64,000 nucleotides of DNA, from assembly GCA_903926855.1 (NCBI GenBank), contig CAIYKV010000105.1, forward strand, positions 1-64,000, given 5' to 3'. Each line of letters begins with the position of its first letter. Position 1 is the stretch's first letter. Positions 6,007 to 26,111 of this stretch are shown here, one piece after another. Under the pieces are notes generated by a model that had not been told where the DNA came from, ran no database searches, and saw only the letters and a list, made by a program, of their open reading frames with translations. Origin of the DNA: an uncultured Bacteroidota bacterium (GTDB lineage: Bacteria > Bacteroidota > Bacteroidia > Chitinophagales > Chitinophagaceae). A program made the position numbers and the translations under genes.

Positions 6007-8988
6007 TTAGTGGATTATTGACTGATAAATGGCTTCCTGGATGTTTGAACGCACGTTTAACTGGCTTATTTTATTATTATCCCTAGTAGGCGTTACCCTG
6101 TTGGAAAGGAAAATATAGACCAGATGATACTTTGGATCTACCCAAACACAGGTGCCGGTAAAGCCAGTATGCCCAAAAGTTTCAGGTGAAACGCTGCGTG
6201 ATGGGTAGGGGTCTTTTCGGGTAGTATTATTTTTTTCGGGCTTATCAAATCCGATCCCTCTTCTGCTCACATCTGATCCGTAGGCTGTAAACTTATCTAT
6301 GGTTGATTTTTTTAGTATCCTCACACCATTTAATTCGCCGCCATTCAACAGCATCTGGTAAAGCTGTGCCAGATCATAGGCATTGCTGAATAAACCCGCA
6401 TGGCCGGCTACTCCGCCAAACATGGCAGATCCTTCATCATGCACATCGCCACGTAACAGTTGCTGGCGAAAATGTTTTTCTAATTCAGTAGGAGCGATTT
6501 CGCTAACCGGCATTTTCTCACGTGGCAGGAATGTAGTCGTACTCATTTGCAAAGGATCATAGAAAGTTTCTTTTGCATATTCATTTAATGGTTTGCCGCT
6601 TACCGCTTCTACAATTTTGCCCAGGAAAATAAAATCATTGTCGCTATACACATATTTGCCCGGAGCTGTTAGTTTGCTTTGTAGAATACGTTTCAAAAGG
6701 GTATCCTCCCAATCATTTCGCAGGTAATACCCTTCCGCTACACGATACTGATGCTGATCATCTTTTTCATTGGTAAAATAACCAGACAAAGGTTTACCAG
6801 TTGTGGTATCCAGTACCTCGCGATAAAAAGGAATAAAAGGCACTAATCCCGCCTGGTGTAATAATATATCATTCAATTTTAGGGAAGCTTTATTACTGCC
6901 TTTTACCCAGGGAAGATAATCACCCAGTGTTTTGTTAATATCCACTTTCCCTTCTTCATATAGTTTCATGATCGAAACATTGGTAGCAGAGATTTTGGTA
7001 ACAGAGGCAAGATCATAAACCATCTCTTTGGTAACCGGCTCTTTCTGATCAAAATTAGTATAGCCAAATGCTTTATGGTATACCAGTTTTCCATCTTTGG
7101 CTACCAAAACCACGCAGCCAGGTGTTGCACCTTTGGCAACGGCATCACTGGCAATGGCATCTATCTTTGCCAATGAATCAGCTGCCAAACCAACTGACTC
7201 AGGAGTACTGAGTGGAAAATAATTATGATACAAAATACCGTCACCAAATTTTAAGTTCTCTGCAACTGTTACGGGTAATTTTCCTTTAGCCTGTATCTTA
7301 CCTTGTAAAAAAGCAACAGCTGCTTCCTGTGTAATATCATCGTCCTCATAGCAGGCAATCAGGTTGGGAGCATAATTGATGTTTTTAATAGCATACGGAT
7401 TGCCAAAAATCAATGTAATAGTCTGAAACTGTTGCAATGCATTTAATAAATAAAGAGAGGGACTGCTTAATCCGAAATTATTAGCAGGCCTGCGACTATA
7501 ATTATGCAGCCCAACAATAATCAGATCATATTTTTTTTGGTTGAGTGTATTCAGTAATTGTACTACAGAAGCGGTATCTGTTTTTTCCAGGGGAATCAGG
7601 TTTGTCTTATCATCCATTAATTGTTTTCCTATCTGTGGCTTACTGCCAAACAAGTAAACATCTGCCTGATTCTCGGTTCTTAATTTTGCAGCAATCGTAT
7701 TTTCAGTTGGTGCACCAATGCTGATATAGGCAATTTTTTTTCCACTTTTAATAGGGAAGATATCCGGATTTTGTTTGTGTAAAAGAGTCAGCGCATTTTG
7801 ACTTAATAAAGTCCTGATGCGCGTGGTTTGTTTATTCAAATCTTCTACAAGGCCTTCAGTCTGAATAGGCGTTATTTTATTCAGCCCCAGGTGATATTTT
7901 GCCAATAATACTTTTTTTACTTTGGCATTGATAATATCCCAGCTAAGTTTCCCTTCTTTAATGGCTTCTTTTATCTTGGCAATGCTACCGGGTATATCGC
8001 CGGGCAGACATAACATATCATTTCCGGCAATCAAGGAGAGTACAGAAGCATCTCCTTTTGGAAAATATTTGGTAACACCCTGCATTTCCAATGCATCCGT
8101 AAATGAAATGCCTTCAAATCCAAGGTCATTGCGCAGAACACCCGTTACATTCAGATAAGATAATGAACTGGGTAAATGCGTAGTGGTATCAATAGCAGGA
8201 ATTGAAAGGTGTGCCGTCATAATACTTCCCACTCCGGCTTTTATCAACTCTCTGAAGGGGTATAATTCCAGATTATCCAATTCCACCCTGCTTTTAGTAA
8301 TAACAGGAAGATCTTTGTGTGAGTCAACCGAAACATCACCATGACCAGGAAAATGCTTGGCTGTGGCCATCACACCTACATCCTGCATACCCCGCATATA
8401 TTCAACTCCATATAAAGCTACTTTGTATTTGTCTTCTCCAAAACTTCTGTCATTGATCACCGGGTTCATTGGATTATTATTGACATCCACATCTGGGGCA
8501 TAGTTTACCTGAATACCCATGCGTTTACATTGTTCCCCGACAGCTTTACCAAATTGATAGATCAGGGTCGCATCCGTTGTAGCACCCATCATTAACTGCC
8601 TGGGATAACTTATTACACTATCTAATCGCATGCCTAGTCCCCATTCTCCATCAATTGAGATCATGATAGGGGTTTTGGCAATGGATTGGTATAAATTGGT
8701 AAGCATTGCCTGCCTTACCGGCCCTCCCTGAAAAAAGCAGATGCCACCGACATTGTATTTTTTAATCTGTTCAATTACTTCCGCCACATGCTCGGGACCC
8801 TGGTTACTCAAGCCACGAATGATCATTAATTGCGCAATCCGCTCATCTTTACTCAGCTTCCGGAATTTCTTTTTTACCCATTTTAAAGCCGCTTTATCTT
8901 TTTCATAGAAATGTTGGGCCTGCACAGAAATGCCGGCATACATACTGAATAAAACACAAAGAATAGTGCAATAGAAGGTTCTTTTCAT
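6007..8988 (-). CDS. GH3 (NagZ-like beta-N-acetylhexosaminidase) / serine beta-lactamase-like fusion protein
   Basis: 'KHFPGHGDVSVDSHKDLP' NagZ-type loop in N-terminal half; 'SVTK' SxxK, 'YSDN' and 'HTGFTG' motifs in C-terminal half. ORF track start is 9012; ATG at 8988 (MKRTFYCTILCVLF) gives a better signal peptide. Confidence 0.9.
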   Translation of the reverse strand: MKRTFYCTILCVLFSMYAGISVQAQHFYEKDKAALKWVKKKFRKLSKDERIAQLMIIRGLSNQGPEHVAEVIEQIKKYNVGGICFFQGGPVRQAMLTNLYQSIAKTPIMISIDGEWGLGMRLDSVISYPRQLMMGATTDATLIYQFGKAVGEQCKRMGIQVNYAPDVDVNNNPMNPVINDRSFGEDKYKVALYGVEYMRGMQDVGVMATAKHFPGHGDVSVDSHKDLPVITKSRVELDNLELYPFRELIKAGVGSIMTAHLSIPAIDTTTHLPSSLSYLNVTGVLRNDLGFEGISFTDALEMQGVTKYFPKGDASVLSLIAGNDMLCLPGDIPGSIAKIKEAIKEGKLSWDIINAKVKKVLLAKYHLGLNKITPIQTEGLVEDLNKQTTRIRTLLSQNALTLLHKQNPDIFPIKSGKKIAYISIGAPTENTIAAKLRTENQADVYLFGSKPQIGKQLMDDKTNLIPLEKTDTASVVQLLNTLNQKKYDLIIVGLHNYSRRPANNFGLSSPSLYLLNALQQFQTITLIFGNPYAIKNINYAPNLIACYEDDDITQEAAVAFLQGKIQAKGKLPVTVAENLKFGDGILYHNYFPLSTPESVGLAADSLAKIDAIASDAVAKGATPGCVVLVAKDGKLVYHKAFGYTNFDQKEPVTKEMVYDLASVTKISATNVSIMKLYEEGKVDINKTLGDYLPWVKGSNKASLKLNDILLHQAGLVPFIPFYREVLDTTTGKPLSGYFTNEKDDQHQYRVAEGYYLRNDWEDTLLKRILQSKLTAPGKYVYSDNDFIFLGKIVEAVSGKPLNEYAKETFYDPLQMSTTTFLPREKMPVSEIAPTELEKHFRQQLLRGDVHDEGSAMFGGVAGHAGLFSNAYDLAQLYQMLLNGGELNGVRILKKSTIDKFTAYGSDVSRRGIGFDKPEKNNTTRKDPYPSRSVSPETFGHTGFTGTCVWVDPKYHLVYIFLSNRVTPTRDNNKISQLNVRSNIQEAIYQSIIH

Positions 8989-9109
8989 ACGAATGATCTT
9001 GAGACAGCACAAGTTAGGAATAAAGAAGGAGTTATGGTTGGGTTCAGACTAGCTGGTTATGGGTTACTTGTTTCGGGTTTAGTGAAGCAGCGTATGGTAT
9101 TCTTCAGAC

Positions 9110-13709: not shown

Positions 13710-15200
13710 ATGTCGCTCAGTCAATCATTACAGCAGAAGTTATTACAAAAACTGTCGCCTCAGCAGATTCAGTTAATGAAACTGTTGCAGGTACCTACTG
13801 CTAATCTGGAAGAAAGGATCAAAGAAGAATTAGAGGAAAATCCTGCGTTGGAAATGGATGAAGAAGCCCATGAAGATGAATACGCAGAAGACATACAGGA
13901 TGAGTTTGATAATGCAAATGATGATGACGCGGATTTAGATGGGAGTGCAGAAGAGTATGAAAACCTGGATATCAGTGAATATGTAGTAGATGATGATGGG
14001 GAGATAGCGGATTATCGGATGAAAGATGATAATTATCCTGAAATGGATGATCAGAAAGTGATTCCTATGAAGGTGGAGAGCAGTTTTCATGAAATGCTGC
14101 TCGATCAGTTAGGTATGCTGGAACTGGATGAAAGAAACTTTAAAATAGCCGAGCAGATAGTAGGCAGCCTGGATGATGATGGCTACCTGCGAAGAGAGCT
14201 CTCTTCCATAGCAGATGATCTTGCTTTTCGCCAGAGCCTGGTGGTGGAAGAAAAAGAAATCGAAGACCTTGTTTTGCAAATACAACAATTTGACCCACCC
14301 GGCATTTGTGCAAGAAATCTGCAGGAATGTCTTTTATTACAGCTAAAAAGAAAATTGAGTGAGGGGATAGGAGTTGCTTTAGCAGTTCAGATACTAAGTA
14401 AGTATTTCGAAGAATTTACCAAAAAGCATTACGAGAAAATTCAACGGAGTCTGAATCTGACAGATGATCAAATCAAAGATGTCATAAACCAGATTATTAA
14501 GCTCAACCCGAAACCTGGGGGTAATATTGGTGAGATCAATAAAGCGGAAAGCTATATTGTACCTGATTTTTTTGTGCTAAATAATAATGGCAAGCTGGAA
14601 TTAACCCTGAATTCTAAAAATGCTCCGGATTTGCGTATAAGTGAAGGGTACCGGGATATGCTGAAAGATTATGATAAAGGAAGTAAAAAAGATAAAAGGC
14701 AGAAAGAAGCAGTATTGTTTATTAAACAAAAGATCGATTCTGCCAAGTGGTTTATTGATATGATCAAACAAAGACAGGAAACATTGGTTAATACCATGAG
14801 TGCCATCATGCGTCACCAGCAGGAGTTTTTTCTTACAGGTGATGAAACCACTATGCGACCTATGATTCTGAAAGATATTGCAGAATTAACGGGACTGGAT
14901 ATTTCTACGGTTAGTCGTGTTGCGAACAGCAAATTTGTTCAGACGGAATTTGGAACTTACCGGTTAAAATTCTTTTTCAGCGAATCACTAAGTACAGATA
15001 GTGGGGAAGAGGTAAGTACCAGAGAAGTGAAAAAAATATTAAGTGATATGATTGGTGCTGAAGATAAGAAAAGGCCACTCAGCGATGAAGTATTGACAGA
15101 TATGTTACAGGAAAAAGGATATAATATTGCACGCAGAACAGTGGCAAAATACAGGGAGCAATTAAATGTACCGGTTGCGAGATTGAGGAAAGAGTTGTAA
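13710..15200 (+). CDS. rpoN: RNA polymerase sigma-54 factor
   Basis: 496 aa; N-terminal Q-rich 'SLQQKLLQKLSPQQIQLMKLLQVP', RpoN box 'ARRTVAKYRE'. Confidence 0.97.
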   Translation: MSLSQSLQQKLLQKLSPQQIQLMKLLQVPTANLEERIKEELEENPALEMDEEAHEDEYAEDIQDEFDNANDDDADLDGSAEEYENLDISEYVVDDDGEIADYRMKDDNYPEMDDQKVIPMKVESSFHEMLLDQLGMLELDERNFKIAEQIVGSLDDDGYLRRELSSIADDLAFRQSLVVEEKEIEDLVLQIQQFDPPGICARNLQECLLLQLKRKLSEGIGVALAVQILSKYFEEFTKKHYEKIQRSLNLTDDQIKDVINQIIKLNPKPGGNIGEINKAESYIVPDFFVLNNNGKLELTLNSKNAPDLRISEGYRDMLKDYDKGSKKDKRQKEAVLFIKQKIDSAKWFIDMIKQRQETLVNTMSAIMRHQQEFFLTGDETTMRPMILKDIAELTGLDISTVSRVANSKFVQTEFGTYRLKFFFSESLSTDSGEEVSTREVKKILSDMIGAEDKKRPLSDEVLTDMLQEKGYNIARRTVAKYREQLNVPVARLRKEL

Positions 15201-17175: not shown

Positions 17176-18195
17176 TTAAAATCGGATACACCGAACCCTG
17201 TCCAAAGTGGAATTCCTTATTTTCAGAAAACCCCTATATGAAGCTGTGAGTTCAAGACCTCCACGCCAATTGGTAGCAGTATTTAATTTTGAAACATTGA
17301 CATCATAACTTACTCCGATACTCATATGATTGAAATCCATTTTCACAGCAGGAATAATGGCATCTCCCCATCTTAGAAAACTGCCGGCATAAAATATTAC
17401 GGGCTCTTCATCTTCGTATTGACGCACTTCCATGCCAAATAATGCACCTCCTAATATCTGTCTGCTACCATTTTGTGTGATATAATCTGCAAAGCTGATA
17501 AAATGTCCTCTTTCTCCCAGCATCCCACTCAAGCCAAAATTCAGAGAGAATTTTGGAGATAAAAAATCTGCAGAAGTGGTTGTTAAGGAATGGATAACTG
17601 GTTTGGCAAAATGGGCTAATCCGGCAGCCATATAAAACCTGTTTTGATTTCCTAATTGTGTACTAAAGCAAAGCCCTGTAGATACATCCCAATAGGAATA
17701 ACCGGTATTGGTCAGGATTTGTGAACTGGCGTTTGAAGCGCTATACGACCCGTTCACAAATTGATCCCCAAATTTCAATTGAGTTGGATCGAACTGGCTG
17801 AAAACAGGGCCGCCCATAAATGCCAGTGATAGATACGTATCTTTTTCATCATCTAGTGATTTATGAAAATTAATGACAGGTAGAATCTGTGTTCTTTTGA
17901 GGCGGATATCTCCTGCAGCATCCATACTCATCTCAGAACCGATGGTGAGAACATCATTGTGTTGGCCGATAGGTATTTTATGTTCAATGCCAAGTGCTGT
18001 TGTTCTGAATGGAACTGTAATACTCGCCCATTGATCGCGGTAAGCCATAGAAACACGCAGGTCGCCGGTAAAAACACCGGCCAGAGCAGGGTTGCGCAAT
18101 AGGGGCTGTTCATAAAACTGAGAAAAAGTAAAATCCTGTGCATGACACAGGGTAAACAGCCCGATTGTTACGATGAAGAGTAGCGCTTTTTTCAT
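17176..18195 (-). CDS. PorP/SprF family type IX secretion membrane protein
   Basis: 339 aa, 'QDFTFSQFYEQPLLRNPALAGVFTGDLRVSMAYRDQWASI' family hallmark. Confidence 0.93.
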   Translation of the reverse strand: MKKALLFIVTIGLFTLCHAQDFTFSQFYEQPLLRNPALAGVFTGDLRVSMAYRDQWASITVPFRTTALGIEHKIPIGQHNDVLTIGSEMSMDAAGDIRLKRTQILPVINFHKSLDDEKDTYLSLAFMGGPVFSQFDPTQLKFGDQFVNGSYSASNASSQILTNTGYSYWDVSTGLCFSTQLGNQNRFYMAAGLAHFAKPVIHSLTTTSADFLSPKFSLNFGLSGMLGERGHFISFADYITQNGSRQILGGALFGMEVRQYEDEEPVIFYAGSFLRWGDAIIPAVKMDFNHMSIGVSYDVNVSKLNTATNWRGGLELTASYRGFLKIRNSTLDRVRCIRF

Positions 18196-18212
18196 GATGG
18201 TACTTTTAAGAT

Positions 18213-18500
18213 TTATTTTATGATTGCCACATTCCCTTTAAATACAAATGAGTTTCCTTTATCACAAACTGCCTCACACAAGTAAACAAATACATCAGTG
18301 TTAGATAATTTGCCTCTTACCCTTCCATCCCATCCGGCAGATTTATCACCAGTCTGGAAATTTGTTTTTTCAAACACCAATTCCCCCCATCTGCTGAATA
18401 TTTTCATACTTTTTATTAGTTTGATACCCCGACCCTGAACAATTAGTACATCATTGACACCATCACCATCTGGTGTAAATGCATTTGGCACAAATAATTC
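18213..18500 (-). other. Type B T9SS C-terminal sorting domain (approximate limits)
   Basis: 'FVPNAFTPDGDGVND...FSRWGELVFEK...AGWDGRVRG' motif. Confidence 0.85.
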
Positions 18501-21500
18501 TGAACCGGAACAAAATGTTTTTATATTGATAGTATCTGTAGTTATACAACCGAATTGATTGGTTGCCTTACAGGTAATAGGCTCATCTAAAACTACTTTA
18601 GCTTCAGGCGAAGCACAATTCATACAACTAAACTCCGCCACCCCGCCCCATTGCCAGGCTACGATATCTGAAGGAAGAACACCCGTATTCAATTGAATAG
18701 TAGCTCCTGACGGAATTGTAGTATCCTTGCCAATATGTATAGGAGTTGGCTCTCCAACTACTATTTTAATAGATGCTGTATCAGCAAAACATTGAAGGGC
18801 GTCTTTACCAATTACATGATAAACTGTTGTACTGGCGGGTGATGCATAAGTGGAGGAACTATTGTATCTACTAAGACCAGGTGCAGGTAGCCATTCATAC
18901 GTAGCAGCTCCTGAAACATTTATTAATTTATTGCTACCGATGCAGATTGAATCAGCAGGTTTCAAGGTTAATTTAAAGGGTTCTATCACATGAACACTTG
19001 TAGATATCGTATTACTGCATCCATATTGGTTATACCCGATAACAGTGTATTGAGTACTCTTTAATGGTAGAATAGAAACACTAGTACAATTGCTGCAGAT
19101 CATGCTATCATTTTGATCTTTCCAGATATAACTCATAGCACCTGTAGCAGACAATTCTAGCGCATTACCTTTACAAACATAGTTATTGGCAGGAAGCGAA
19201 ATGGTAGGTAATGAATGGATACTCAATTGTTTGTAGGCAGAGTCATAGCAACTATTCACCGTTGATACAACCAGCTGTAAACTATATTGACCAGCTGAAT
19301 AATATTGAATACTGATAACCGAATCAGTTGCCGTAGTTCCATTGCCTAAATTCCAATACGTTTTTGAAATGGAGTCTTGAGAATTCACAATCGATTTAAT
19401 CTCCATTAATTTATAGGCGCAGGCATCGTTGATGGCATTGATATTTGCCTGTGGATATTGATAGATTTGAACATTGAACTTTGCACTTAGCGTAGCACTG
19501 CATCCAATGCTATTTTCAACTGTAAGTCCCGCTTCATAATTTCCCGCTTGCGTATACACCTGTTGAACTGATTTTTGGTTCATCAATCCGGCAGCCGTTG
19601 GTTGTAAACTTGTATTTACCATCCAGTTCCTTTTTGTGATTGGGAAAAATGAGGAACTGGTATCAGTAAATGTGTAATTGGTTTTTGAACATTCATTCAA
19701 TGCGGCGACAGTAAAGCCTGTTTTTATTGAATCTATTTGAATCGTATCTTTTGCAGGAACGGATATGGCACAATGGTTAGCACTCAGCAGCGTAAGCTTA
19801 GGTAAATAAACACCAGGAGTAGTGTAGGTATGGTTGATTTTTTGTACCGGGCTGGTTAATATGGTTCCATCCCCAAAATTCCAACGGATAGAATCAGTAA
19901 GTGTGGTAACTGGTGTAAAAGCAATCGTTGTGTTAGATCCGCAAAAATTTCCTCCTTTGTATTGAAGGGCTATTGAGGGTGCATTTATATGAACTATGGC
20001 TGTATCCAGATAACTACAACCACCTGGTTGTATTGCCAGCATGGTTACTGTATAATCTCCATTTGTAGAAAAAATATGTGATATGGTATCGCCAGCACCA
20101 ACACTGCCATCTCCCCAGTTCCATTTTGTTTGGGAACTGGCAGTATCCATATTGGTAAATGAAACCGTAAATGGCAGGCATCTTCCTATAGTATCTGATA
20201 TTGATACATGACCAGGTTTTTGTGATACAATTGAAATAGTTTTTTGTATCGAATCCGAACAGGTAATATCAGGATGGGTACTCCATACTTTTAATTGCGT
20301 ACTATAATTTCCTGGCAAACTAAACGAATGCGTAAGTGTAGAAGCACTTGATATAGATCCGTCACCCAGATTCCACTGGAAAGAAAGAGTGCTGTCTGAA
20401 AGATTCTGAAGTTGTATAGGTATTCCAATACAATTATTATTAACCAGAGAATTGAATACTGATTTAACGGAAGGATAGATTTTTAATTTTCTATTGATGA
20501 CCGAATCGCTGCAAACGCCGTTTATCGTATTAGCGATTAAATAACTACCTGACTGTTGATATGTGTGTGAAATATCGCCAGGTGTATTGGTGGTTTGTAT
20601 AGATGAGCCATCGCCAAAATCCCATTTGTATTGGGTGGAAGTATTCGTTTGGTTATGCAGAACCAGGGTAAACGGAGTTCCACAGGCGGCCGTGTCTGCC
20701 AGTGTAAGATCTGTTTTCAGCTGATTGGGTAATGCGGTAATAGGGAAGGTTGCTGAATCCGTTCCACAACCATTAGTTGCCAGTATTCTTGCTAAGAAAA
20801 CTGTTTGGTTCCCTGTATGATATATATGTAAATAGGAGCCCGTAGAACCTGTGATACTATCTACCCCATCTCCATAATTGATCTGATACTGAGCCTGACT
20901 GCTGGCCGATTGATTAGTAAAGATTACTTTCATTGGAGAACAACTATTCAGAATTTTTCCCGTAAAAGCGGGTTTTATTTTGGTGGTAACGATAATCTGT
21001 TTTTGAATAGTAAGGGTATCGCAATACTGGAATGCTTTCAGCGAAATAGTATAAGTAGTGTCTCTTCTGTTTATTGATGAAGGAAAGCTTATAGAGCCAG
21101 GCTGAACCAGATTAGATGACTGATTGTTTCCTAAATTCCACTGATACTGAAAGCCAGCTAATTGAGGAGTTGCATTAGTGATGGTAACAGAAAGCGGGCC
21201 GCAACCTGCTGTATCACTCAGGGTAAAAGAAGGCTGAGGCGAATCAAATAATTTTACAATGGTTATTGTACTATCAACACCACAATTAAACAGGCTGGTT
21301 GCTTTTAGTTTAATGATGGCAGAATCTTTTGATAATAGTATACCTGGGAAGCGATTACCAGACCCTGTATATTTTTCATTCGTATACCAATCATAACTCA
21401 TCTCGCTAAGCACCAGCGGGTTGATAATACTGCTATCAACCGTAAATGGGCTACAACCCTGCAACCGGGAGGTTATCACGCTTGCTTTAGCAAGAGGATG

Positions 21501-24500
21501 TACAAAAGCAGTTACACTGAAGATTGATCCGATACAACCATTTGATACCGGGGTTACCATATAAGTAACTGTTTGGCTGACAGAAGTTGTATTTATTAGG
21601 TTACCATTGATAACAGAATTATTTAGAGCACTGCTTGTACCGGTTACGCCGTTGCTTGGGGTAGGGCTGTTCCAACTAAATAGAGTTCCTGCTGGCAAAA
21701 TCCCATTGACTCCGTTTACTGGAGTGATTGCAAATACTGAACCACTGCAGCTTGCTAAACTTAAAGGGGAAATAGAGGGAGCAGGGTTTATTGTGACTGT
21801 TACCGTAAAGGTGTTACTTATGCAATTCCCGTAAACCGCAGATACCAGATAAGTGGCTGTCTGAGGAATATTTGTTGTGTTAATAAGACTACCATTAATC
21901 GATTTTGCATTGGTAGCCCCCATCCCTCCGCTGATACCTTCTTTTACAGAGGGTGCAGACCAGGAATAATTTGTATTGTTCGGTATAATACCATCAACTC
22001 CATTAGCCGGACTAATCGTAAATATTGTACCACTGCAAATAGTAGTAGAGAGAGAAGTGATGGCAGGAACCGGGTTATTATAAACAGTTGTGGTAAATGG
22101 CGAGCCAAAACAAGATCCTGAAACAGGAGTGATGATATAAGCTACAGACTGAATAGTACTCGTACTATTCACTAAGGAATCAAAGATGAATGTAGCATTT
22201 GAAACACCGCTTCCACTGGATACTCCATTTGTAATGGAAGGAGCAGACCAGCTATATAGTGTTTGGTCAGGTATATTTCCATTGATGCTGTTAACCGGAG
22301 CAATGGAGAATGCTGCCCCATTGCAAATCACAGCGCTCATTGGAGAGATTGAGGCCACAGGGTTAACGGTTACGGTTAGTGTAAATGAGGATCCATTGCA
22401 GGAACCTGAAATGGGTGTTATACTGAATGTGGCTGTTTGAGATTGATTGGTTGGATTGGTAAACAAGCCAGTGATGATTGTGGAATTAACTCCACTCAGC
22501 CCACCTGATAAACCTCCAGTTACGGAAGGGGCGCCCCAACTATATAAAGTCCCATAAGGAACACCATTATTTGAGCCATTAGATGGACTCAGGCTGAATG
22601 CTACTTCACTGCAAATAGTATTACTCATAGCATTGATCGCAGCTATTGGGTTTACACTGACAGTTAATGTGAAAACTGTTCCTGTACAATTACCTGAAAC
22701 AGGAGTTATCATGTATGTGGCAGTTTGGGCAGTTGTGTTAGAATTGATCAGAGAGCCAGAGATGATAGCTGAATTAGTGGCGCTATCTCCATTAGTTAAA
22801 GTGCCAGATACAGCAGGAACAGCCCATCTGTATAGAGTACCTGCCGGAATAACACCCTGTATTCCGTTTACCGGATTAATAGTAAAGGAGCTGCCATTGC
22901 AGACAACAGCAGTCAAGCTAGTAATAGAAGCAGATGGATTGATATTTACTGTTACGGAAAATGTATTACCAATGCAATTGCCGGAGATAGGGGATATGGT
23001 ATAAATAGCAGTTTGAAGACTATTTGATTGATTGAATAAAGTGCCACTGATGAGTGTAGACATAGTTGAACTGCTAAACCCAGTTACACTAGCTGTTACG
23101 GATGGGGAAGACCATAAGTAATTGGTTCCTGCTGGAATAACCCCATGAATTCCTTCAAGTGGTGTAATTGCGAAATCAGTACCCGTACAGATGGTAGCAG
23201 TTAATTCGGTAATAGAAGCCACTGGGTTAATGGAAACAATAAGTGTAAAAGGAGAAGCTGTACAATTTCCGTAAACAGGTGTTACAGAATAGGTAGCTGT
23301 TTGAACAGTATTTGAATTATTAACCAGTGTTCCTGTAATAGTAGCAGCGGAGTTTCCGGATAATCCCCCATTCAGATAACTGGTAAGGGATGGAGCAGGC
23401 CATGTATATAAAGTTCCCGGAATTACGATCCCATTCATGCTATTTGCAGGGTTCACACTGAATGGTGTATTACTGCAAGTAGTGGCTGTTATGGCACTTA
23501 TCGTATTTACCGGGTTAATTGCTAAGGTTATCGTGAATGATGCACCAATACAATTTCCGGATAGTGGACTAATAGAATAAGTTGCTAGTCCAAGCTGGTT
23601 GCTTGTATTCAGTAAAGTGCCGGTAATACTATTGCCTGCTCCACTATTGCCACTTGTAAAACCAGTACCTGTTGGAGTTAACCAGGTATAGCTTGTTCCG
23701 GTAGGTATAGTCCCGTTTATACTATTGGTGGGTGTGATGGAAAAACTGGCACCGCTGCAAATAGTGCCAGATATAGCAGAAATCGTTGCTACAGGGTTTA
23801 CGGTAATGATTAGTGTGAATGGGATACCTGCACAATACGTACCGCCAGGTAATTGAGAATACGGGGTAATTGTATAGGTTACAACAGCATTCGTATTTGC
23901 AGAAGTATTCACTAGTGTGTCATGTATATTTCCAGTTCCGCTTGCCGTGTTTCCCGTTACAGAACCCGCGTTAATGGAGGATACCCAGGAGAATGTACTT
24001 CCGGGTAAGGAAGAAATGGGTAAATATAGTAAGGCCTGATTGGAACAAATGGTTTGAGTTGTATCGGTACCTGTGTTATTTGGAAGTATTCTGATGATGA
24101 TTGAATCGATAGCTGGTGATGCGGGGCAAGATCCTGTTGTATTTATATTTCCTGATCCGGTTAAATACAAAGTGATGTTATTTTTTGCTTTATCATTTGC
24201 GCTGAATGAATAATTTGTGGTAAGCAAATTAGGGTTAGAAAATGTTCCGGTTCCATTGGTAGACCATGCGTAAGTGTTGGTAACAGCAGAAATTTTTGCA
24301 GATAAATTGATAACAGTTGCTTGATTACAAAAGGTGATATCATGAATCCCCTGAATAGTATCGGATGGGATGATATTTTTATAGATAAGCTGTGTATCTG
24401 AACAGGTAATGCCATTGGTAGTATATTGAATAGCTACTGAATAAGCGTAACCATCTGAAAGTTGTACATACGGAAATTGTGCATTTGCAGAACTTCCGGT

Positions 24501-26111
24501 TTCATAAGCAAAGCTTCCACCATTTGATTGAATACTCCATAGGTAGGTATCAGACAAAAGAGCAGCACTGTATACTGGTGTAAAAGGATTCTGATCAAAA
24601 TGAATGGATCCGTTATTACAGGCAATCACATCGTTTTGTAACCGAACACTTGCGGTTGTGAGTATTTTAGTAACTCCTTGTGTGCATCCATTAGAGGTTA
24701 CTGAATAACTGATCAGTGCAGATCCAGCGCTAAGCATGGTAACCAAACCTGCATTTGTAATAGCAGCTACTGCGGTATTATTACTGGTCCAGATTCCCCC
24801 AGGTGTTATATCAGTAAGCGTTAGAACGCTTCCTATACAAGCTCCGTTGCCACCATTGATCGCGGCAACAACAGGTGTTGAATTAATCGATACTGTGGTA
24901 GTTGAAGTTGCAGTACATCCTTTCGCATCGGTAAGTGTGAGTGAGTAGGTGCCCGTAGCGGCAGTAGTTACAGATGGAACAGAGGGTGCGGAAATAGAAG
25001 ATGAGAAACCATTTGGCCCGCTCCATGTATATGAGTAAGGGGTAGTGCCACCAAGTGCTGTAGCACTTAATGGCAGATTATTGCCAGAACAAATCGGGCT
25101 ATTACTGCTGATATTGACAGTGGGAACTGTGTTTACCCTCAATGAAATGGCATTGGAAGCAGTAATGCAGGTATTACTTGATAAGCTGGACACATCTGGC
25201 CCAACCAGAACCCTGTAATAAGCCCCATCGGTTGCACTGACATTTGATAAGGAAAAATTATTGGCTGAGGGTCCGGGTGTACCGATATTGTTCCATGTAA
25301 CCCCATTATCTATACTTTTCTGCCATTGGTAAGCAGGGCTGGTAAACGGACTGTTAATAAGGGATGTGGAGATGGTGGTACTAGATCCGGAACAAATACT
25401 AGAAGAAGTATTCAATGAAATGGTTGCCTGTGGTGTACAAGCAGTAAAAAGAATATCATCCAAAGCAAGATCATTGCCACAGGCATTAGCTCCACCCCAA
25501 AAATCAACCATTTCCAGTACAAGAGAAGTTGTTCCGGCAGGTAACGTAAATTGAAAGCCATATTGTTGCCAATTTGCCGGGCCGTTATTTGGGGATAATG
25601 GAAGATTACCAGTGTTATAAGTTGCAAGCAGAACACCTGAAGTATTTTTGATATTGAATATAACGTTTGCATACACAAGGCCACCACCACAAACTCCAAT
25701 AGTATTGGGGGTATTTGCATTAGCGAGCCAGGCTGAAAAATTAAAAGTGGATCCAGAACAAAGGCCGGTAACGGTTTCTTTAAAAAAAAGTGATTTCCCG
25801 CCTCCCGCATTTACCAAAAACATATTTCCATTGGTATTCCCTGTATGATCACCACCTTTTGTCCATTCGGCTTTACCTGCATTTTGAAAAAGCGGGGTTA
25901 ATACATAATTGCCATCAGTTCCAACATTTCCAAAATTATAATTGGTAGTACCAGCTGGTGCAGTAGAGGTAGAAGAACTGGTTGCGCCCTGCCCAAAATC
26001 CTGCTTAAAAACAGGCGCCAGCGCGTTGTTGGGACAGAGTTGTGGTAATACACGAAAGCAGAACCACAACATACAGATCCCTGTTAACAGGATGTGTTTG
26101 TAGGCTTTCAT
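18213..26111 (-). CDS. Giant PKD/Ig-repeat surface protein with gliding motility-associated (type B T9SS) C-terminal domain
   Basis: 2632 aa; signal peptide; tandem ~96-aa repeats; PKD-type 'WNLGDGS...HSFSLPGNYSTQLKV' modules; C-terminus 'LFVPNAFTPDGDGVNDVLIVQGRGIKLIKSMKIFSRWGELVFEK'. Confidence 0.95.
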   Translation of the reverse strand: MKAYKHILLTGICMLWFCFRVLPQLCPNNALAPVFKQDFGQGATSSSTSTAPAGTTNYNFGNVGTDGNYVLTPLFQNAGKAEWTKGGDHTGNTNGNMFLVNAGGGKSLFFKETVTGLCSGSTFNFSAWLANANTPNTIGVCGGGLVYANVIFNIKNTSGVLLATYNTGNLPLSPNNGPANWQQYGFQFTLPAGTTSLVLEMVDFWGGANACGNDLALDDILFTACTPQATISLNTSSSICSGSSTTISTSLINSPFTSPAYQWQKSIDNGVTWNNIGTPGPSANNFSLSNVSATDGAYYRVLVGPDVSSLSSNTCITASNAISLRVNTVPTVNISSNSPICSGNNLPLSATALGGTTPYSYTWSGPNGFSSSISAPSVPSVTTAATGTYSLTLTDAKGCTATSTTTVSINSTPVVAAINGGNGACIGSVLTLTDITPGGIWTSNNTAVAAITNAGLVTMLSAGSALISYSVTSNGCTQGVTKILTTASVRLQNDVIACNNGSIHFDQNPFTPVYSAALLSDTYLWSIQSNGGSFAYETGSSANAQFPYVQLSDGYAYSVAIQYTTNGITCSDTQLIYKNIIPSDTIQGIHDITFCNQATVINLSAKISAVTNTYAWSTNGTGTFSNPNLLTTNYSFSANDKAKNNITLYLTGSGNINTTGSCPASPAIDSIIIRILPNNTGTDTTQTICSNQALLYLPISSLPGSTFSWVSSINAGSVTGNTASGTGNIHDTLVNTSANTNAVVTYTITPYSQLPGGTYCAGIPFTLIITVNPVATISAISGTICSGASFSITPTNSINGTIPTGTSYTWLTPTGTGFTSGNSGAGNSITGTLLNTSNQLGLATYSISPLSGNCIGASFTITLAINPVNTISAITATTCSNTPFSVNPANSMNGIVIPGTLYTWPAPSLTSYLNGGLSGNSAATITGTLVNNSNTVQTATYSVTPVYGNCTASPFTLIVSINPVASITELTATICTGTDFAITPLEGIHGVIPAGTNYLWSSPSVTASVTGFSSSTMSTLISGTLFNQSNSLQTAIYTISPISGNCIGNTFSVTVNINPSASITSLTAVVCNGSSFTINPVNGIQGVIPAGTLYRWAVPAVSGTLTNGDSATNSAIISGSLINSNTTAQTATYMITPVSGNCTGTVFTLTVSVNPIAAINAMSNTICSEVAFSLSPSNGSNNGVPYGTLYSWGAPSVTGGLSGGLSGVNSTIITGLFTNPTNQSQTATFSITPISGSCNGSSFTLTVTVNPVASISPMSAVICNGAAFSIAPVNSINGNIPDQTLYSWSAPSITNGVSSGSGVSNATFIFDSLVNSTSTIQSVAYIITPVSGSCFGSPFTTTVYNNPVPAITSLSTTICSGTIFTISPANGVDGIIPNNTNYSWSAPSVKEGISGGMGATNAKSINGSLINTTNIPQTATYLVSAVYGNCISNTFTVTVTINPAPSISPLSLASCSGSVFAITPVNGVNGILPAGTLFSWNSPTPSNGVTGTSSALNNSVINGNLINTTSVSQTVTYMVTPVSNGCIGSIFSVTAFVHPLAKASVITSRLQGCSPFTVDSSIINPLVLSEMSYDWYTNEKYTGSGNRFPGILLSKDSAIIKLKATSLFNCGVDSTITIVKLFDSPQPSFTLSDTAGCGPLSVTITNATPQLAGFQYQWNLGNNQSSNLVQPGSISFPSSINRRDTTYTISLKAFQYCDTLTIQKQIIVTTKIKPAFTGKILNSCSPMKVIFTNQSASSQAQYQINYGDGVDSITGSTGSYLHIYHTGNQTVFLARILATNGCGTDSATFPITALPNQLKTDLTLADTAACGTPFTLVLHNQTNTSTQYKWDFGDGSSIQTTNTPGDISHTYQQSGSYLIANTINGVCSDSVINRKLKIYPSVKSVFNSLVNNNCIGIPIQLQNLSDSTLSFQWNLGDGSISSASTLTHSFSLPGNYSTQLKVWSTHPDITCSDSIQKTISIVSQKPGHVSISDTIGRCLPFTVSFTNMDTASSQTKWNWGDGSVGAGDTISHIFSTNGDYTVTMLAIQPGGCSYLDTAIVHINAPSIALQYKGGNFCGSNTTIAFTPVTTLTDSIRWNFGDGTILTSPVQKINHTYTTPGVYLPKLTLLSANHCAISVPAKDTIQIDSIKTGFTVAALNECSKTNYTFTDTSSSFFPITKRNWMVNTSLQPTAAGLMNQKSVQQVYTQAGNYEAGLTVENSIGCSATLSAKFNVQIYQYPQANINAINDACAYKLMEIKSIVNSQDSISKTYWNLGNGTTATDSVISIQYYSAGQYSLQLVVSTVNSCYDSAYKQLSIHSLPTISLPANNYVCKGNALELSATGAMSYIWKDQNDSMICSNCTSVSILPLKSTQYTVIGYNQYGCSNTISTSVHVIEPFKLTLKPADSICIGSNKLINVSGAATYEWLPAPGLSRYNSSSTYASPASTTVYHVIGKDALQCFADTASIKIVVGEPTPIHIGKDTTIPSGATIQLNTGVLPSDIVAWQWGGVAEFSCMNCASPEAKVVLDEPITCKATNQFGCITTDTINIKTFCSGSELFVPNAFTPDGDGVNDVLIVQGRGIKLIKSMKIFSRWGELVFEKTNFQTGDKSAGWDGRVRGKLSNTDVFVYLCEAVCDKGNSFVFKGNVAIIK
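21501..23798 (-). repeat. Eight tandem ~96-aa (~287 bp) Ig/PKD-like repeats inside the giant protein
   Basis: Units begin 'NP[VISA]xxIxxxxxxxCxxxxFxIxPxNxxxGxxPxGTxYxWxxP' and end 'QTATYxxTPVxGNCxGxxFTxTVxx'. Confidence 0.9.

Follow-up and report, generated by a model that had tools for sequence, protein, structure and literature searches.

A giant putative type-B T9SS adhesin and its adjacent PorP/SprF-family carrier in an uncultured Chitinophagaceae bacterium

Described type-B systems and the two-gene locus

In Flavobacterium johnsoniae, the substrate genes of type-B T9SS pairs, Fjoh_3952/Fjoh_3951 among them, lie directly upstream of their PorP/SprF-family carrier genes, and the putative adhesin Fjoh_3952 has a type-B CTD (PMC12618676). 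A PorE gene follows Fjoh_3951, and PorE-type anchoring to peptidoglycan has been proposed for Fjoh_3952/Fjoh_3951/Fjoh_3950 (PMC12618676). In SprB/SprF, a very long type-B adhesin is paired with a carrier whose periplasmic C-terminal tail bears a Cys-X-Cys motif. In F. johnsoniae, disulfide bonds join SprF (through this motif) and PorG to Cys343 of GldK, and both SprF cysteines are required for gliding (PMC12635249). In PorP-PorE-PG1035 of Porphyromonas gingivalis, a protein with a type-B CTD is bound by a barrel of the PorP family, which also anchors it (PMC9143113). The giant T9SS protein GhpA of Aureispira (PDB 9flp) has a stalk of Ig-like repeats and ends in a CTD that can be recognised as such.

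The window analysed here is a 64,000-nt stretch of DNA from an uncultured member of the Chitinophagaceae, and its substrate and carrier genes have the same order, CTD type and carrier family as the F. johnsoniae pairs (Table 1). Unlike Fjoh_3951 and PorP, the window carrier has no adjoining PorE gene; its substrate, unlike PG1035, is a giant, and its tail bears a single cysteine (RCIRF) where SprF has Cys-X-Cys. The arrangement itself is thus of a known, published kind, of which the window is an ordinary, well-supported example; the new element is a comparison of tail cysteines across carriers.

Table 1 Features of the two-gene locus (positions in the window)
Feature	Position	Strand	Basis
Type-B T9SS substrate, putative adhesin, 2632 aa: signal sequence, CBM-like head, Ig/PKD stalk, type-B CTD	18213..26111	-	ORF and domain profiles
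Head, residues about 24–232, CBM4/16/MAM-like jelly roll (predicted)	25416..26042	-	AlphaFold2, Foldseek, Pfam, homologue alignment
Ig-like domain(s), residues about 313–440, resembling GhpA grappling-hook stalk repeats	24792..25175	-	Sequence match
Nine PKD_5 repeats, residues about 686–1555, period about 96 aa	21447..24056	-	Profile matches; limits approximate
Seven PKD_4 repeats, residues about 1600–2290	19242..21314	-	Profile matches; limits approximate
Type-B C-terminal sorting domain (TIGR04131 / CHU_C), residues 2540–2632	18216..18494	-	Profile matches
Intergenic gap between substrate and carrier genes, 17 nt	18196..18212	-	ORF limits
PorP/SprF-family outer-membrane carrier, 339 aa; predicted 14-strand barrel, N-terminal helices, disordered C-tail	17176..18195	-	Profiles, model, Foldseek
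Codon for residue 336 (RVRCIRF), the only cysteine of the C-tail and a candidate GldK tether	17188..17190	-	Sequence, carrier survey

The original prediction, a 2632-aa ORF with a type-B CTD and a PorP/SprF gene 17 nt behind it, was borne out by coordinates and profiles. The TIGR04131 match of the long protein was marginal, since its 35.2 bits barely exceed the cut-off of 35, and CHU_C (PF13585) matched residues 2540–2629 with 44.1 bits (cut-off 27). The carrier scored 121.2 bits against TIGR03519 (T9SS_PorP_fam, cut-off 90.55) and 93.8 bits against PF11751, well clear of the threshold of 22.3. Residues 1–24 of the long protein form a putative Sec-type signal sequence, as judged by eye. A terminator-like site was sought in the gap between the genes and none was found; gene order and spacing suggest that the substrate gene is transcribed ahead of the carrier gene. 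Recent repeat expansion of the stalk was rejected, as a search for near-identical DNA repeats in the PKD array found none.

We consider it likely that the two genes encode a type-B T9SS substrate and an outer-membrane carrier dedicated to it. Sec would export the substrate, which would then cross the outer membrane through SprA; its CTD would be taken over by the adjacent barrel and remain bound. The long Ig/PKD stalk would then project from the cell and display the carbohydrate-binding-like head.

The window neighbours of the pair are genes for an AI-2E transporter, a 219-aa protein and RpoN; rpoN (sigma-54; 13710–15200, + strand) is also a frequent neighbour of the orthologous pair in congeners. 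Elsewhere in the window, a gene at 6007–9012 (- strand) encodes a 1001-aa protein in which a family 3 glycoside hydrolase domain is fused to a beta-lactamase/PBP4B-like domain.

Conservation and co-diversification of the pair

A contig scan found only two close relatives, an uncultured Bacteroidetes MAG with a near-identical carrier (98%) and a Chitinophagaceae MAG with one of 74% identity. Orthologous carriers with 58–65% identity were present in eight of the 36 congeners searched. The giant gene lay directly upstream of the carrier in six congeners and both MAGs, giving eight further adjacent copies among contigs that reach far enough; two more copies of the pair were broken by contig ends. 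Since the same adjacency recurs in congeners, it is not a matter of chance. At the extremes, the two genes overlapped by 4 nt or stood 19 nt apart. The same 219-aa membrane-protein gene lay near the orthologous pairs, as did rpoN in most cases and, on the far side where visible, an MMPL gene.

The giant protein has 1506 aa in congener G021, 2632 aa in the window and 5164 aa in G010, a genome that consists of a single contig. Compared with G021 and G010, respectively, the window protein was 65% and 64% identical in the head and 63% in the CTD for both, and the carriers were 62% and 63% identical. Identity fell to 40% and 27% in the PKD_4 region and to 50% and 48% in the stretch just before the CTD. 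Head, CTD and carrier are equally conserved (62–65%), while the Ig/PKD stalk diverges (27–50%). The high identity of head and CTD, the low identity of the stalk and the varying lengths indicate that both ends are constrained and that the stalk can vary freely, as for a spacer that evolution would have lengthened and shortened. The comparative value of the locus lies in this combination of a fixed head and anchor with a stalk whose length varies more than threefold between congeners.

In four congeners (G010, G033, G027, and G035; loci L054, L055, L059, and L060), a convergent second type-B module adjoins the orthologous pair. Its CHU_C protein of ~770 aa (kelch-like in the one scanned) is accompanied by a PorP and by a TPR/PD40/OmpA protein resembling PorE. 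No such second, PorE-bearing type-B module was found beside the window pair.

For a mirror-tree analysis, we used 73 adjacent substrate-carrier pairs from Chitinophagales, flavobacteria, and other families, with 2000 partner shuffles within each genome as the control. The distance matrices of CTDs and carriers correlated with r = 0.771, and none of the 2000 shuffles (0.574 ± 0.031) reached this value. The shuffle controls for genome background and not for gene linkage, and linked genes co-diversify by common inheritance even without contact. This co-diversification supports the dedicated pairing of substrate and carrier, although part of it could come from linked inheritance alone. Together with the conserved synteny, diversification beyond the within-genome shuffle supported the proposal of a dedicated pair.

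An improbable alternative is that the pairing is non-exclusive, with the carrier serving several substrates or the substrate using another carrier. The window genome (3.54 Mb, 275 contigs) has five PorP/SprF genes and eight type-B CTD genes over the cut-off; besides four adjacent pairs, four substrates and one carrier are orphans. This set resembles that of F. johnsoniae, in which three orphan type-B substrates share one orphan carrier and in which carrier sharing and crosstalk are known (PMC12618676). However, crosstalk in F. johnsoniae was between similar CTDs, and the window CTD and carrier, besides co-diversifying, are far from those of the other three pairs in the genome (normalised distances of 0.60–0.70 for CTDs and 0.83–0.88 for carriers). 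The orphan genes are located on contigs C72, C275, C44 (two), and C223.

The predicted head fold and GhpA

The head is 58–69% identical in the five closest homologues. Its AlphaFold2 model (pLDDT 90.1, pTM 0.88) had CBM4-2 as the best Foldseek match in the PDB (E 2e-6); CBM16, CBMs that bind porphyran and alginate, and MAM domains were also among the best matches, which had TM scores of about 0.4–0.6. In an alignment of 32 heads (the window and homologues from the order), weak Pfam matches were found to CBM_4_9 in 13 and to MAM in 11. The window head scored 15.0 bits against CBM_4_9, under the gathering score of 25.9, so that the match is one of fold likeness only; no Pfam family covered the window head above its cut-off. 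The head thus shares a predicted jelly-roll fold with CBM4/CBM16 and MAM, with weak sequence matches in many members, but differs from them in falling under the Pfam cut-off. These models agree with the jelly-roll-like N-terminal head that had been proposed, and a carbohydrate-binding-like domain that may bind sugars is the fold type predicted. The same head was also found on a conserved orphan type-B protein of roughly 650 aa that is widespread in the order; in the window genome, this short protein is encoded on contig C72 (L020:7309-9228; 38% identical).

GhpA was the only PDB sequence match to the window CTD and the main match to an Ig-like domain, and GhpA and the window protein are both giant T9SS proteins. 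A grappling-hook-like filament catching prey or particles, as GhpA does in Aureispira, is nevertheless very improbable here. The 405-bit score (5.6e-120) arises from one Ig-like region matching some 30 GhpA repeats, and kinship with GhpA as a sign of common function was rejected on this ground. The window head is unrelated by sequence to GhpA and is not present in it, and the likeness is confined to the CTD and one Ig-like region. The CTD match is generic, because a second giant of the window genome matches GhpA in its CTD alone.

T9SS genes, the carrier tail and GldK

T9SS core genes, whose absence would have refuted the original prediction, were present in the window genome. Profile searches detected SprA (2396 bits), GldK (561 bits), GldL, and a GldJ-like protein (338 bits, under the curated cut-off of 458); PorU- and PorV-like genes adjoin the GldJ-like gene by inspection, and ten type-A CTD matches exceeded the cut-off. 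The congener G021, which has the pair and is 98% complete, gave no match to GldK, which may reflect an assembly gap or true loss.

The carrier model had a pLDDT of 74.9 (moderate confidence), and its best Foldseek match in the PDB was chain F of 8gl6, a substrate-bound T9SS complex (E 4.6e-7). We take this chain to be PorV. A separate search of the carrier against solved structures gave chance WD-repeat matches only.

Each of the five carriers in the window genome has one tail cysteine, and none has Cys-X-Cys. The cysteine is conserved in all window-type carriers, including that of G035. Of 39 carriers from Chitinophagales, 34 have it at position -4, counted from the C-terminus, whereas cysteine has a frequency of 0.0005 elsewhere in these barrels. 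On the GldK side, Cys302 of the window genome aligns with F. johnsoniae Cys343 and is invariant in nine of nine GldKs, two flavobacterial ones carrying it at number 343 itself. At the nadK-porG-uppS locus, PorG has Cys-X-Cys in most Flavobacteriaceae and a single cysteine in Chitinophagales, the latter counted from syntenic genes that read cleanly, with a few loci left out. The single tail cysteine of P. gingivalis PorG is essential, and a lone SprF Cys326 forms the GldK bond in a minority of molecules only (PMC12635249).

On the periplasmic side, a disulfide between the single tail cysteine of the carrier and Cys302 of GldK may bind the carrier to this ring/track component of the T9SS. Given the aligned residues, such a single-disulfide tether of the window carrier is a real possibility, at somewhat less than even odds. 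We advance with equal caution the wider idea that, across Chitinophagales, the single -4 cysteine attaches type-B carriers to the track or ring of GldK without SprF's exchangeable pair, that their adhesins would be clients bound covalently, and probably irreversibly, to the T9SS energy chain, and that cysteine loss may mark the PorE-anchored static carriers of flavobacteria. The cysteine pattern makes the disulfide-track model (PMC12635249) testable outside Flavobacterium and bears on the distinction between mobile and static type-B adhesins.

A true gliding adhesin, equivalent to SprB/SprF and moving along a track, is doubtful. The long stalk, the type-B CTD, the tail cysteine, and the GldJ-like protein would fit it, but the GldJ score lies under its cut-off and the Cys-X-Cys of SprF, both cysteines of which are needed in F. 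johnsoniae (PMC12635249), is missing from all five carriers. Membership of the window carrier in the SprF group was rejected for lack of the motif, which also speaks against movement of the adhesin. The CTD had been called "gliding-motility type": the family match stands, while the name is historic and implies no motility here. For the PorP/SprF protein, the family assignment was likewise confirmed, and "carrier" or "anchor" is a better term than the "receptor" first used.

A static anchor, in which the carrier is held to peptidoglycan by a PorE-type protein and the cysteine plays no part, appears unlikely, though less so than gliding. A static type-B adhesin has been reported (PMC12618676), and four congeners carry the PorE-linked module beside the orthologous locus. 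In our survey, PorE-linked carriers outside Chitinophagales were without the tail cysteine: a PorE-like gene lay downstream of 29 of 35 Cys-less carriers, compared with none of five Cys-bearing ones (p = 0.0007, relatedness ignored). The latter count argues against static anchoring of a Cys-bearing carrier, and a search of the locus found no PorE-like gene adjoining the window pair. PorE-linked membership was rejected on this basis for the window locus only, not for the whole genome. Inside Chitinophagales, 8 of 36 Cys-bearing and two of three Cys-less carriers were PorE-linked (p = 0.16, relatedness ignored), which leaves the cysteine unsupported as a mobile/static marker within the order. 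Because most PorE-linked carriers of Chitinophagales (8/10) keep it, the tail cysteine alone is no sign of a mobile or static adhesin.

The tail ends also differ between groups. Most PorE-linked carriers of flavobacteria have P-R-F/Y-F as their last residues, often as S-P-R-F-F, with serine often at the cysteine position; Chitinophagales carriers end in C-P-R-F.
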